58,071 nt of DNA from Dehalococcoidia bacterium (GTDB lineage: Bacteria > Chloroflexota > Dehalococcoidia > Lucifugimonadales > Lucifugimonadaceae): positions 150,325-208,395 of the forward strand of contig JAKUNJ010000004.1 in the NCBI GenBank assembly GCA_022451965.1, read 5' to 3'. Under the pieces are notes generated by a model. It was not told where the DNA came from and did not search any database. It worked only from the letters and a program-made list of their open reading frames with translations. Shown here piece after piece: positions 2,037-19,103 of this stretch. Numbering within the stretch: position 1 is the first letter of the stretch; each line of letters begins with the position of its first letter. Both the position numbers and the translations under genes were made by a program.

Positions 2037-2885
2037 TTAATTAATGGAATCAATGGTATATATTTGTTCTCCACCAGGTGTAGAAACAGTAACTTCATCA
2101 CCCATCCTTCTGCCAAGTATGGCAGAACCAACTGGTGAAACACTTGATATTTTACCTAGAAGTGGGTTTGCTTCATTTGCTTCTACTAATTGATAATCGT
2201 AATTGTTATTATTACTATGATTCTTAACAGAAACTTTAGATCCTATTACGATTCTATCTCCACCTGAAGTACTATCAATTATATTTGCTATCTTAAGAAT
2301 TGATTCAATCTCAAAAATTTTAGAGTTGACCATTTCAATCTTTTCCCTTGCTGCATCTAGAGGTGCATTTTCTCTAATATCACCATCTGCAGCAGCTCTT
2401 CTAACTTCTTCAGCTAATTGAGGTCTCTCGGACTTAAAATCTTTTAGTTGTTTTTCATAGTCCTTATAGCCAGCTTCTGTTAGATTTATTTGTTGCACCT
2501 TGCTATCTTCAAGCCTTTTTGTTATTTTGCCTACATTAGATTTTTTCATTCTAAGATGAGAGGCTAAGTTAGAGTTAGTCAATTCAGATGATCTTAGAAA
2601 AGTTAGAAATTTTTTGATATGAGCTACTTTTTGGGGGCTAGTATCTGTACTAGATCTTTTAGCAAACTCATCTGAGTAAACTCCAATTTCTGAGGGAGTG
2701 ATAGTTTCAACAGTCCTATCAGGACCCAGCCACCTAACCATTCTTCCAATTTCTTGCTGTGCTGTATTATTTAATTTTCTTGAGGATGTTTTCACATAGA
2801 ACTGAAAAGCATCAGACAGGCTATTTACTTCAGAAATGTTTTCAGTTTCCTCTATAATTGACTTAACTTCAGCTTTCTTAGACAA
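2037..2885 (-). CDS. greA: GreA-family transcription elongation factor with extra N-terminal SAM-like domain
   Basis: GreA rescues backtracked RNA polymerase by stimulating transcript cleavage. The last about 150 residues are a complete GreA: a coiled coil (about 132-209), with the acidic tip GDIRENAPLDAARE supplying Asp169 and Glu172, then the FKBP-like domain ending GRRMGDEVTVSTPGG. Residues about 23-114 are extra and resemble the SAM-like core-binding domain of tyrosine recombinases (helical, with the pattern TVETITPSEIGVYSDEF and a KVAHIKKFLTFL helix). Usual GreA is about 158 residues; this one is 282. The reading frame is open to 2978, but I chose the TTG at 2885 because GGGGAG lies 7 bases upstream. 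The fusion lies in one uninterrupted frame. Confidence 0.85.
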   Translation of the reverse strand: MSKKAEVKSIIEETENISEVNSLSDAFQFYVKTSSRKLNNTAQQEIGRMVRWLGPDRTVETITPSEIGVYSDEFAKRSSTDTSPQKVAHIKKFLTFLRSSELTNSNLASHLRMKKSNVGKITKRLEDSKVQQINLTEAGYKDYEKQLKDFKSERPQLAEEVRRAAADGDIRENAPLDAAREKIEMVNSKIFEIESILKIANIIDSTSGGDRIVIGSKVSVKNHSNNNNYDYQLVEANEANPLLGKISSVSPVGSAILGRRMGDEVTVSTPGGEQIYTIDSIN

Positions 2886-2998
2886 TTCAAAACTCCCCAG
2901 TAAAATTTCGTATCCTATCATTTTAAATGAATTTTTGATAAAAAGCTTTCTTAAATGAATGTTTTTATGAAGAAACAATTTTTTTATTCAATATTTTT

Positions 2999-3203: not shown

Positions 3204-3533
3204 TTGGAATTTATCAGTCTAAAAAAAAAATCAGAATTTATTGAATTAAAAAAATTCGGTAAAAAAATTAATTATAGATTTGTTTCAATTACATTTCTTG
3301 AAAACCAAGATGATTTTAGATTGGGATTTCAAATAACAAAAAAATCTGGTAATGCAGTTTTTAGAAATAAAATCAAAAGACAGATAAAAAATCTGATAAA
3401 TGAAATATTTTCTAACCAATTGGAAATTCCAATGAATAAAGGTTTTTGGTTGCTAATTTACGTAAATCCAAAGATAGATAAATTCCAATATTCTGAATAT
3501 AAATCTTTTTTTAGAAAGAAATTTGATTTATAG
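3204..3533 (+). CDS. rnpA: Ribonuclease P protein component
   Basis: The 109-residue protein subunit of RNase P, which helps the catalytic RNA bind precursor tRNA for 5' maturation. It shows the family layout: an N-terminal LKKKSEFIELKKFGKKI segment, a central strand with RLGFQITKKSGNAV, and the RNR-type motif RNKIKRQIKNLINE at about 56-69. The length is normal (about 110-120). The start is a TTG at 3204; no ATG fits before the conserved N-terminus. The stop codon TAG also forms part of the likely ribosome-binding site of the next gene. Confidence 0.95.
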   Translation: MEFISLKKKSEFIELKKFGKKINYRFVSITFLENQDDFRLGFQITKKSGNAVFRNKIKRQIKNLINEIFSNQLEIPMNKGFWLLIYVNPKIDKFQYSEYKSFFRKKFDL

Positions 3534-3542
3534 GAAAAAAAA

Positions 3543-4973
3543 TTGAATGAAATAAAATTATTTTCACTCAAAATTGATATGATTATGAAAAAATCATCTA
3601 ATGCTTTTTTATCATTTTATAAATATGCAATATCCCCATACCTCATGAGTCAATGCTGCTACGCTATATCTTGCTCCGAATACTCAAAATTTATAATTAA
3701 TGAAAAAGGATTTATTTTAGGGCTAATTTACTCTTTTATTAGATTATCTAAGTGTACCTTATTACCTTTTAGAAAATTTATATTCATTAATAAAAAAATT
3801 AAGCTTTTATTATTCGTTTTTACTTTCTTTACTTTTGTCTCTTGTACGAATTTTGAACATCAAGGTGGTTGGTCTGATGTAATACTAGATCCTGACAATA
3901 AAAGTTTTTTTGTTACATCTAATAAAGGTAAGGTATTTAACATAGTTTCGAATGATGGTATTCCGAGAATAAACTGGTCTTACCCTGAAGAAGAAAAAGG
4001 AACTTCATACTCAAATCCTATTTTATATAAAAATTCTATATTAAGTGCAAAATTTGATTGCAGGGGTAAAAATTGTGAGGGGGAAGTTTTCGAAATAAGA
4101 AAATCAGATGGCCAGGTTATTTGGAATAAAAATATACCATCCAAAATAAACCCAAAGCTTCAAATATTTAATGATATTTTGATTTTCTCAACCCTTGAAA
4201 AGCAAAATAGTGTAGAGGATCCAAAATCAAGTAATATTTACCTTATTTCTCTTAGAGATGACGATACAAAAGGAGAAGTTGTAGGCAAAATACCTGTTAT
4301 TGGTGAAATTTGGAATGGAGTCTACCTAAATAATGAAAAAATTTTTGCTGCAACATTAGAAGGATCCCTACATATTTTTGATGCTAATAAGTTCGGAGAT
4401 TTTTCAAATAACTCTTTAGATGAAATTTCAATAGATAAGGTTAATTTCCCCTATGCAATAAACTCTCCATTATTCTTTTTAGAAAATCGAATAATGTTTT
4501 CTGATACATCAGGTATGTTTTATTCTGCAGATATAAATAACCTTCAAAATTTTAATCAAATAGATTTAGAAAACTGGATGATTTCTAAGCCCTTATTTAA
4601 TGATTCCAAAATTTATGTGTTTACTCTCAATGGAGATATAATTACAATTCATCCTGATAAATTTGAAATTATAGAAACATTTAATACGGATAAAGTTATT
4701 GTAGGAGATCCTAAAATCCTAAAACTCGATACTGATGAATATATACTTTTACCCACTGAAAAAGAAGGTATTGAGATTATTAATATTAATGAATTTGATA
4801 AAGGTAATAGCGTAGGTAGGTATTCTACTGAAGAAAAATTGTATAGCTCTCCATTAATCTTTGAAAATAATTTGATAATTCATACCCAAGAAAGTAAATT
4901 ATTATTTTTTAAGGTTAAAACAAGAGATATGTACTATTGCCTTAATTTAAATGAAGAAAAGATATGTAACTAA
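3543..4973 (+). CDS. yidD: YidD membrane-insertion factor fused to a predicted beta-propeller lipoprotein
   Basis: Residues 1 to about 75 match YidD, a small membrane-associated factor that aids YidC-dependent insertion: FLSFYKYAISPYLMSQ, CSEY at 44-47, then GFILGLIYSFIRLSKC. Basic INKKIK is followed by a hydrophobic helix (about 86-99) ending in the lipobox-like FVSC (Cys101). The remaining about 370 residues carry repeated strands such as SDGQVIWNKN and GSLHIFDANK, typical of PQQ-like/BamB-type beta-propellers. No in-frame ATG, GTG or TTG lies between Met35 and Cys101, so this reads as one polypeptide. The TTG start at 3543 has AGGA 7 bases upstream; an ATG at 3579 is an alternative. The position between rnpA and yidC fits yidD. 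Cleavage at Cys101 by signal peptidase II, splitting YidD from the propeller, is inference. Confidence 0.8.
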   Translation: MNEIKLFSLKIDMIMKKSSNAFLSFYKYAISPYLMSQCCYAISCSEYSKFIINEKGFILGLIYSFIRLSKCTLLPFRKFIFINKKIKLLLFVFTFFTFVSCTNFEHQGGWSDVILDPDNKSFFVTSNKGKVFNIVSNDGIPRINWSYPEEEKGTSYSNPILYKNSILSAKFDCRGKNCEGEVFEIRKSDGQVIWNKNIPSKINPKLQIFNDILIFSTLEKQNSVEDPKSSNIYLISLRDDDTKGEVVGKIPVIGEIWNGVYLNNEKIFAATLEGSLHIFDANKFGDFSNNSLDEISIDKVNFPYAINSPLFFLENRIMFSDTSGMFYSADINNLQNFNQIDLENWMISKPLFNDSKIYVFTLNGDIITIHPDKFEIIETFNTDKVIVGDPKILKLDTDEYILLPTEKEGIEIININEFDKGNSVGRYSTEEKLYSSPLIFENNLIIHTQESKLLFFKVKTRDMYYCLNLNEEKICN

Positions 4974-4975
4974 TT

Positions 4976-5938
4976 ATGAATATTTTTAGTTTATTTTGGA
5001 CAAACATAATAATGAAGCCTATGATAAATAGTCTTTCTATTCTCTATGATTTATTAGGCAATAATTTAGGTCTTTCTATTATAAGCTTTACTGTTATTGT
5101 AAGATTTATTCTTATTCCACTTACTATCAGGCAAACAAAACAGATGAAAAGGATGCAGGATCTTCAACCACAGCTTCAGGCTATTCAAAAGAAGTATAAA
5201 AATAAAACTCCACAAACTAGACAAAAGCTACAGCAGGAAACTATGGCTCTATATAAAGAGGCAGGAGTAAATCCTATTGGTTGCTTAGGTCCACTAGTAA
5301 TACAAATGCCTATTTGGATTGGTCTCTATAGAGCAATTCTCAAGAGTGCTCCTTCATCTCCTGAAGGATTTGTAGATCTTTCTAAATATTTTTATTCTTG
5401 GAACTCATCAATTTCTAAGATACCTTTTAACAGTAATTTTATTGGAATTGATCTTGTAGATTTTGTTCAATTTGCACCCACTCCATGGCAGTTTGCACTT
5501 CCTTTGATTGTTGGATTATCAATGTTCATACAGCAAAAATTTACTACAGCACCCACAACTGATCCCAGGCAACATCAGACCCAACAAATGATGCTTTGGA
5601 TGATGCCTATCATGTTCGCAGTATTTACATGGCAATTTCCTGCTGGTTTAGCAGTATATATATTTTTTTCTAATTTAGTTGGTATAGCGATACAGTACTT
5701 TGTAGGAGGTAAACAACCATTAATGCTTTTTGGTAGGCTTTATTTCGGTACTACAGAATCTAGAGAAATATATTTAGAAAAATTAAGTGCACAAAAAGAA
5801 AGTAAAAATACAGAAGTTAATAATTTAAATAAGGAGGAAACTAATGAATCCACGAATATTCAAAGGGAAGACAGTAGAAGAAGCAACAGAAGAAGCTCTA
5901 AAAACTCTAAAAAAAGATCTAGAAGATCTAGAAATTAA
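4976..5938 (+). CDS. yidC: Membrane protein insertase YidC
   Basis: YidC/Oxa1/Alb3 insertase, 320 residues, of the short type without the large Gram-negative periplasmic domain. Visible hallmarks are LGLSIISFTVIVRFILIPLT with its membrane arginine, the cytoplasmic coiled-coil QTKQMKRMQDLQPQLQAIQ, NPIGCLGPLVIQMPIWIGLY, and the late helices WMMPIMFAVFTWQFPAG and AVYIFFSNLVGIAIQYF. It places proteins in the inner membrane alone or with SecYEG. The C-terminal tail (SRRSNRRSSKNSKKRSRR) is highly basic, as in YidC proteins whose tails bind ribosomes. That tail is encoded in the 95 bases that overlap khpB in another frame. Confidence 0.95.
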   Translation: MNIFSLFWTNIIMKPMINSLSILYDLLGNNLGLSIISFTVIVRFILIPLTIRQTKQMKRMQDLQPQLQAIQKKYKNKTPQTRQKLQQETMALYKEAGVNPIGCLGPLVIQMPIWIGLYRAILKSAPSSPEGFVDLSKYFYSWNSSISKIPFNSNFIGIDLVDFVQFAPTPWQFALPLIVGLSMFIQQKFTTAPTTDPRQHQTQQMMLWMMPIMFAVFTWQFPAGLAVYIFFSNLVGIAIQYFVGGKQPLMLFGRLYFGTTESREIYLEKLSAQKESKNTEVNNLNKEETNESTNIQREDSRRSNRRSSKNSKKRSRRSRN

Positions 5939-17969: not shown

Positions 17970-19103
17970 TTAGTCAGGTCTAGCCTCTAAATTAACCTCT
18001 AAATTTAGGTATTTATAATCTCTAACTACTTCTATTTTTACTATATCCCCAGGTTCAGTGTTAAGTGCTAAATAGGATATTAAGTCTTCAAATGTATTTA
18101 TTTTAAAGTTATCAATTTTTGTTATTATGTCACCATCATAATTTATGCTTGACATTGAAGAAGATGAATCACCTAAAATACCTGATTTATCTGCAGGCCC
18201 ATTAGATAAAACATTGAGTATCAGTATTCCCTTGAAGTTTTCTTCTATATCAGCTCTTATCCTTGTTCCGAAATCTAAATTTAAGGCAGTTATTCCTAGA
18301 TATGAATATTTGTGATCTTTCCCATTAATAATACTTTTTACCACTCTTTTGGCTAAATTTATTGGTACAGCAAATCCAACGCCTGAATTTTGCCTTGAAC
18401 TACTTTTTATTTGAGTATTTATTCCAATCACCTTACCATCCTTATTGAGCAGAGGGCCACCAGAATTTCCTGGATTTATTGCAGCATCTGTTTGGATTAC
18501 ACTTGGAATCTTATATGGAGTAAATGTTGAATCTAAAGATCTACCAATGGCACTAACGATACCGGTAGTCATGGTAAATTCTTGATCAAAGGGGCTGCCA
18601 ATTGCTATAGTCAAGTCGCCTGGAGATATAAGATCAGAGTCATATAACTCAAGAGGAGATAATGCATTTATTTTTTCATCATTATTAGGATTATAAATTT
18701 TTATGATTGCCAAATCAGCAGAAGAATCTAATCCAACTATATTTGCTAAGTATTCATCGTTATTAATTGTTCTTACCACAATTATAGGGTTATTATTAGA
18801 TACGGCTGGTTGAATAACATGATAATTAGTTAGTATATTCCCATTATTATCCCAAAGAAAACCTGAACCTGTTCCAATTTTATTGTCTGGGATCCCTGAT
18901 AGATCTCTAGAATACAAATCTATTTGAACAACTGATTTAGTTGATTTAATGTAAATATCTTTATATTTATTTTCTGAATCTTCTAATGGTTTATTTTCTT
19001 GAATAACTAAATCTGACTCTTCTGGTGTATCCCATTGATCATTATCACATGAAACAAAAAATAAAGATAAGATTGTTATGAATGTGTAGAGTTTCATAAT
19101 CAT
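17970..19103 (-). CDS. HtrA/Deg-like trypsin-type serine protease, lipoprotein with PDZ domain
   Basis: A 377-residue exported protease of the DegP/DegS type. The N-terminus is a lipoprotein signal peptide ending LFFVSC (Cys19). The trypsin-like domain carries the full triad: His95 in TNYHV, Asp130 in SSADLAI and Ser214 in GNSGGPL. A PDZ domain (about 270-372) includes GILILNVLSNGPADKSGI. Such proteins degrade or sense misfolded proteins outside the membrane. It follows nadE by 32 bases and may be read as the last gene of the glnA operon. The MIM start leaves two nearby ATGs as options. Confidence 0.9.
   Translation of the reverse strand: MIMKLYTFITILSLFFVSCDNDQWDTPEESDLVIQENKPLEDSENKYKDIYIKSTKSVVQIDLYSRDLSGIPDNKIGTGSGFLWDNNGNILTNYHVIQPAVSNNNPIIVVRTINNDEYLANIVGLDSSADLAIIKIYNPNNDEKINALSPLELYDSDLISPGDLTIAIGSPFDQEFTMTTGIVSAIGRSLDSTFTPYKIPSVIQTDAAINPGNSGGPLLNKDGKVIGINTQIKSSSRQNSGVGFAVPINLAKRVVKSIINGKDHKYSYLGITALNLDFGTRIRADIEENFKGILILNVLSNGPADKSGILGDSSSSMSSINYDGDIITKIDNFKINTFEDLISYLALNTEPGDIVKIEVVRDYKYLNLEVNLEARPD

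Follow-up and report, generated by a model that had tools for sequence, protein, structure and literature searches.

YidD, a membrane protein insertion efficiency factor encoded in the rpmH-rnpA-yidD-yidC cluster, is a small and widespread protein whose part in membrane-protein insertion is poorly understood. In a 58,071-nt stretch of a Dehalococcoidia genome (contig JAKUNJ010000004.1; hereafter the window), the frame that starts with a YidD domain in this cluster continues through a hydrophobic segment into a beta-propeller. The locus raises the question of whether this frame is a real gene and whether its product is a precursor that is split at an internal lipobox, as an earlier note on this DNA had suggested. 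The genome comprises 1.25 Mb in 14 contigs and is 97.8% complete.

The reading frame between rnpA and yidC

The locus contains the following features, given with their positions in the window.

3204..3533, forward strand: rnpA (RNase P protein), the upstream gene of the operon; Pfam Ribonuclease_P, 63.1 bits
3532..3535, forward strand: AGGA, overlapping the stop codon of rnpA and resembling a Shine-Dalgarno site for the fused gene; AGG/AGGG at the equal position in 7/7 fused genes
3543..4973, forward strand: fused gene (YidD, putative internal type II signal, beta-propeller), 476 aa, probable TTG start; single open frame
3603..3758, forward strand: YidD domain, residues 21-72; Pfam PF01809, 41.4 bits (cut-off 27), and TIGR00278, 41.2 (cut-off 40)
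3765..3842, forward strand: basic n-region and hydrophobic h-region, residues 75-100; from charge, hydropathy and the fast-evolving junction
3843..3845, forward strand: lipobox Cys101 (FVSC), predicted cut and lipidation site; Cys in 6/6 fused genes with a readable codon
3846..4970, forward strand: predicted BamB-like eight-bladed beta-propeller, residues 102-476; AlphaFold2 and VIA-align
4976..5938, forward strand: yidC; Pfam 60KD_IMP, 180.3 bits, the sole YidC/Oxa1 match found in the genome
5844..6650, forward strand: jag/khpB, downstream gene; Jag_N, KH and R3H domains, overlapping the yidC 3′ end

ORF and Pfam/NCBIfam scans agree with the earlier description of positions 3543-4973 as one open frame, in which the YidD domain (CSEY motif at residues 44-47) is followed by a basic and then hydrophobic segment ending in FVSC, and by a C-terminal part that matches a propeller family in Pfam. 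The yidC start lies 2 nt past the stop codon of the fused gene. Neither a second yidD nor a second yidC was found elsewhere in the genome, leaving the fused gene as its only YidD. Downstream, the 3′ end of yidC overlaps the start of jag by 95 nt (5844-5938) in a different frame, and this end of yidC encodes a very basic tail. Positions 2037-2978 (reverse strand) encode a GreA/GreB-type elongation factor that is extended at its N-terminus by about 160 residues; this extension has no clear Pfam match, giving a weak MarR match only, and by eye looks like a recombinase-type core-binding domain.

Near the N-terminus of the fused frame, in-frame NTG codons are found at residues 1 (TTG), 13, 15 and 35 (all ATG) alone, which bears out the claim that no ATG, GTG or TTG lies between Met35 and Cys101. 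Because an AGG(G) motif occurs at a matching upstream position in all seven fused genes known from the genus, with TTG there in six and ATG in one, the TTG at 3543 is likely to be the start. At the window junction, no GGAG, AGGA, AAGG, AGG, GGA or GAG motif was found, and a hidden internal start with a Shine-Dalgarno site in this junction was rejected on that ground. Similarly, no strong Shine-Dalgarno sequence or common start codon was found at the junction among the fused genes.

The segment that ends at Cys101 resembles a lipoprotein signal. In the window protein, the 16 residues from Cys71 contain four K/R and no D/E, and hydropathy is 1.75 over 19 residues. A basic n-region, an h-region and a lipobox Cys are found at the internal segment of the fused genes, six of which conform to a PROSITE-like lipobox regular expression and to the hydropathy expected, the Cys codon of the seventh being ambiguous. 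The Cys is residue 97-108 when counted from the predicted start, whereas in an N-terminal signal it would lie within about 15-40 residues of the start. As the earlier note had observed, the identical FVSC lipobox is present in an HtrA-like protein of the window (17970-19103, reverse strand; HtrA/DegP family match), which begins MIMKLYTFITILSLFFVSC. A lipobox with a hydrophobic stretch arose in 98 of 20,000 shuffles of the window protein and six congeners besides the window genome keep the whole architecture, hence the fused arrangement exceeds what is expected by chance. The segment at the fused joint is therefore a plausible type II signal.

Conservation of the fused gene within the genus

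The genus (g1), which consists of small-genome marine bacteria, was represented by nine genomes including that of the window, the named congeners being SAR202 cluster/Chloroflexota MAGs (OSU_BB06, TMED70, NAT118, EAC10, SP316, H12BWF_bin.23 and PW8.metabat2.98). YidD and propeller lie in a single frame in seven of the nine; the locus is absent from one genome (64% complete), and the halves are in different frames in EAC10 (G007). Seven of the eight members with the locus, from separate assemblies, are thus fused, and the genes of the six congeners besides the window genome show 72-41% identity.

The split frames of EAC10 could suggest that two separate genes were joined elsewhere by sequencing or assembly error. 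This explanation is barely credible, being refuted for the genus by the concordance of seven independent assemblies, and sequencing error was rejected as the cause of the fused frame. The EAC10 junction is itself N-rich and frame-broken, and in the deposited sequence no NTG precedes the lipobox Cys in the propeller frame. In the propeller tree, the genus forms one clade (100/100) on a very long stem branch (2.0 changes per column), within which EAC10 groups with the fused NAT118. Since the genus is a single clade and EAC10 nests beside a fused member, the fused state is most simply taken as ancestral for the genus. The gene fusion is real and conserved genus-wide.

Both halves of the fused gene are under purifying selection. 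Among the pairs that have diverged further (G001/G004, G000/G001, G000/G004 and G000/G003, with synonymous sites near saturation in the more distant ones), dN/dS was 0.11-0.15 for the YidD core and 0.06-0.22 for the propeller, against 0.37-1.75 for the junction, which evolves freely. The very close pair G002/G005 gave 0.46 for YidD and 0.25 for the propeller, from few substitutions. In the junction, the character is kept (a basic stretch, a hydrophobic one and a lipobox ending V/I-S-C) while the letters are not, a mode of change that resembles that of a signal peptide.

The YidD half scores above the curated cut-offs of PF01809 and TIGR00278, and C38, C44, C71, SPY, CS.Y and KG are invariant in the genus. 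However, it is markedly changed, which the earlier note had overlooked: the C-terminal tail (GG-DPV) of a full-length YidD is lost and most basic residues of helix 3 are gone. In every fused member scanned, the Pfam match covers the domain only up to position 57 of 67, whereas it reaches 67 in nearly all order relatives, and profile scores are 45-53 bits compared with mostly 80-110 in order-level relatives. Helix 3 corresponds to residues 56-70 of the window protein and has lost basic residues while its hydropathy has risen strongly, with a mean hydropathy of 1.78 and 1.7 K/R in fused YidDs versus 0.0-0.3 and 3.4-3.9 K/R in separate ones; if this more hydrophobic helix spans the membrane, the topology could differ. 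The AlphaFold2 model resolves the YidD part poorly (pLDDT 35-70, with low confidence over residues 1-110). Judged from its sequence, the fused YidD domain is kept by selection yet remodelled; its original function therefore cannot be assumed.

Such remodelling would suit a protein whose YidD part has given up its role in insertion and serves only as an extended membrane-binding n-region to target and anchor the propeller, being degraded or left inert after cleavage. The loss of the tail and of the helix 3 basic residues, as well as the reduced profile scores, point in this direction, but the low dN/dS of the YidD core in most pairs, the invariant residues and the fact that the genome has no other YidD speak for a domain still in use, and make an inert YidD unlikely.

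The yidD-propeller-yidC neighbourhood across the class

Among the findings that would count against its proposal, the earlier note had listed relatives with two separate genes and a frameshift or missing start at this locus, or a propeller with its own ATG in most strains. Relatives with two separate genes do exist outside the genus, and their propellers mostly start at a codon of their own, yet fusion is the rule inside the genus. Throughout the remaining 11 genera of the family, yidD is separate from the lipoprotein-propeller gene and adjacent to it. A propeller lipobox is present in 21 of 22 family, 29 of 30 order and 28 of 29 class loci with separate genes, and an in-frame start at the expected distance was found in 19 of 21 family-level separate propellers. 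The order rnpA-yidD-propeller-yidC was found in all 30 loci sampled across the order (yidC being undetected within the short flank in two) and in 29 of 30 across the class, the exception being cut by a contig end; the class-level positives include the single-contig genomes G198, G233 and G288 (1.4-1.5 Mb). In other classes of the phylum, a propeller lies between yidD and yidC in 5 of 25 sampled loci and yidC directly follows yidD in 15, numbers that are not unbiased frequencies, as these loci were chosen by YidD score. Given the separate adjacent genes in the family and the gene order conserved across order and class, the fusion evidently joins two ancestral neighbours, yidD and a propeller-lipoprotein gene.

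A second case was found in G208, a genome of another family of the class, in which a full-length YidD (89.7 bits) and a propeller share one frame of 458 aa (L158, 1526-2899; one genome). Its joint contains a GTG at codon 80 behind a strong GGAGG, and its propeller groups apart from the SAR202 genus in the tree, which suggests an independent in-frame joining. Among the other long YidD frames in the phylum, G208 is the only one of this kind; those of G228 and G296 extend upstream and do not join YidD to a propeller.

Several separate propellers of another genus of the family, g12, lack a usual start codon. In g12 (L013, L019, L021, L022, L057, L060, L062, L064 and L066), the near-identical sequence GGAGGCCTAAAACGCCACCGTCAATA precedes the separate propeller, lying 146 nt ahead of the last base of the lipobox Cys codon (154 in L067). 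An in-frame ACG follows its GGAGG by 6 nt; L067 lacks one base and has a spacing of 5 nt, with its ACG still in frame. This conserved ACG is a candidate start.

These loci bear on the idea that a second ribosome entry, in frame, makes a free propeller pre-lipoprotein, so that two products would come from translation and the fusion would be incidental. Besides the GTG of G208 and the possible ACG starts of g12, G001 and G004 have an in-frame ATG 27 codons before the Cys, and an in-frame NTG of some sort lies upstream of the lipobox in five congeners. However, these candidate starts sit at differing places among congeners, the window has neither an NTG between Met35 and Cys101 nor a Shine-Dalgarno-type motif at the junction, and, as no stop codon intervenes, translation of YidD would still yield the fusion. 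Internal entry is accordingly quite improbable as the explanation of the locus.

The earlier note had regarded the arrangement as new for insertion machinery. Because the yidD-propeller-yidC neighbourhood is old and class-wide, what is new is the joining and not the association. This neighbourhood is a wider and stronger result than the polyprotein model. The gene order and two independent joinings suggest that propeller, YidD and YidC are functionally linked, although neither adjacency nor fusion proves that they interact physically. A class-wide neighbour joined twice to YidD is classic evidence for such a link, and it suggests that, in bacteria that have no outer membrane or BAM complex, the YidC machinery includes an outside component. 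In a literature search, no description of a YidD fusion or of a YidC-linked propeller was found.

Propeller fold, proposed processing and known systems

BamB (YfgL) is a beta-propeller lipoprotein of the BAM complex. AlphaFold2 predicts the propeller half of the window protein as a confident eight-bladed, PQQ-like propeller (pLDDT mostly 83-94), which VIA-align superimposes on many BamB chains with a Z of about 30, at 2.4-2.5 A over about 309 residues and 11% identity. In Foldseek and VIA-align comparisons, BamB, YxaL, tetrathionate hydrolase and designed propellers score alike (Z 28-31, 11-18% identity), hence the fold is BamB-like but not BamB-specific. The BamB equivalog score is 29.6, far under the cut-off of 285.2, and no match to Omp85/BamA, the partner of BamB, was found in the 97.8% complete genome. 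Membership of BamB was rejected for these two reasons, while the resemblance in fold stands. Chloroflexota have been reported to be without a BAM complex (PMC13319060), and cultured SAR202 relatives have been described as monoderm and as having no peptidoglycan genes (PMC10444878).

The enzymes for lipoprotein maturation are encoded in the genome, as a profile search gave LspA at 118.5 bits and Lgt at 172.4 bits, both above cut-offs. Of the polyprotein cut at Cys101 that had been proposed, what stands is a genus-wide fusion beside yidC, with a plausible type II signal at its joint and with both LspA and Lgt encoded in the genome; the polyprotein itself is a plausible model. The single frame and the hydrophobic helix between the domains would suit an uncleaved two-faced protein, in which this helix is a signal anchor and YidD and propeller form one chain across the membrane. 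Such a protein is unlikely: the lipobox and Cys101 are kept in all readable congeners despite the divergence of the rest of the segment, LspA and Lgt are present, and the separate propellers of relatives, judged by the same criteria, are lipoproteins.

We therefore consider it probable, though far from certain, that this fusion, fixed in the genus, is cut at its internal lipobox by LspA, leaving YidD inside and a lipidated propeller outside as a YidC-linked scaffold or chaperone. In this model, the whole chain would be made, probably from the TTG at 3543, and its YidD part would stay on the cytoplasmic face. Segment 75-100 would act as an internal lipoprotein signal and take the propeller across the membrane via Sec/YidC, after which Lgt would lipidate Cys101 and LspA would cut before it. 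The outcome would be equal amounts of a YidD with a C-terminal membrane helix and of a lipid-anchored propeller outside, next to YidC, where the latter would probably assist YidC-dependent insertion from outside the cytoplasm, as a scaffold or chaperone. Should the internal lipobox be used in this way, this would be an unusual bacterial precursor giving two working proteins via signal peptidase II; a literature search on bacterial polyproteins with an internal signal yielded no useful bacterial precedent. More tentatively, a lipid-anchored BamB-like propeller may be an external partner of YidC in Dehalococcoidia and some other Chloroflexota, which one SAR202 genus makes together with YidD in one chain that signal peptidase II cuts at the internal lipobox, giving a stable membrane-anchored YidD inside and the propeller outside.

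Compared with the separate yidD and propeller genes of other SAR202 and Dehalococcoidia, the fused gene comprises the same genes in the same order between rnpA and yidC. In those relatives a stop lies between the two genes, which usually have their own starts, whereas they are joined only in g1 and, independently, in G208. The fused gene resembles YidD (PF01809, TIGR00278) in family score, in gene position and in three family Cys conserved in the genus, but differs from it by the attached lipoprotein propeller, the absent conserved C-terminal tail and a far more hydrophobic, less basic helix 3. With BamB, the window propeller shares the predicted eight-bladed PQQ-like fold, a lipoprotein signal and a plausible scaffold place beside a membrane insertase; it differs in its identity of about 11%, in a genome with no Omp85/BamA match, in the link of its gene to YidC rather than BamA, and in belonging to monoderm bacteria.

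The cytochrome b/c1 precursor of Bradyrhizobium is a bacterial polyprotein cut at an internal signal sequence. In hepatitis C virus, which offers no more than an analogy, the signal peptide of E1 anchors the cytosolic core protein ahead of it (PMC5402940). The proposed precursor is similar to both in that a cytosolic domain leads into the signal peptide of the protein behind it, and this peptide can remain as the anchor of that domain. However, these systems involve unrelated proteins and enzymes of the signal peptidase I type, whereas the lipobox of the fused gene predicts signal peptidase II.
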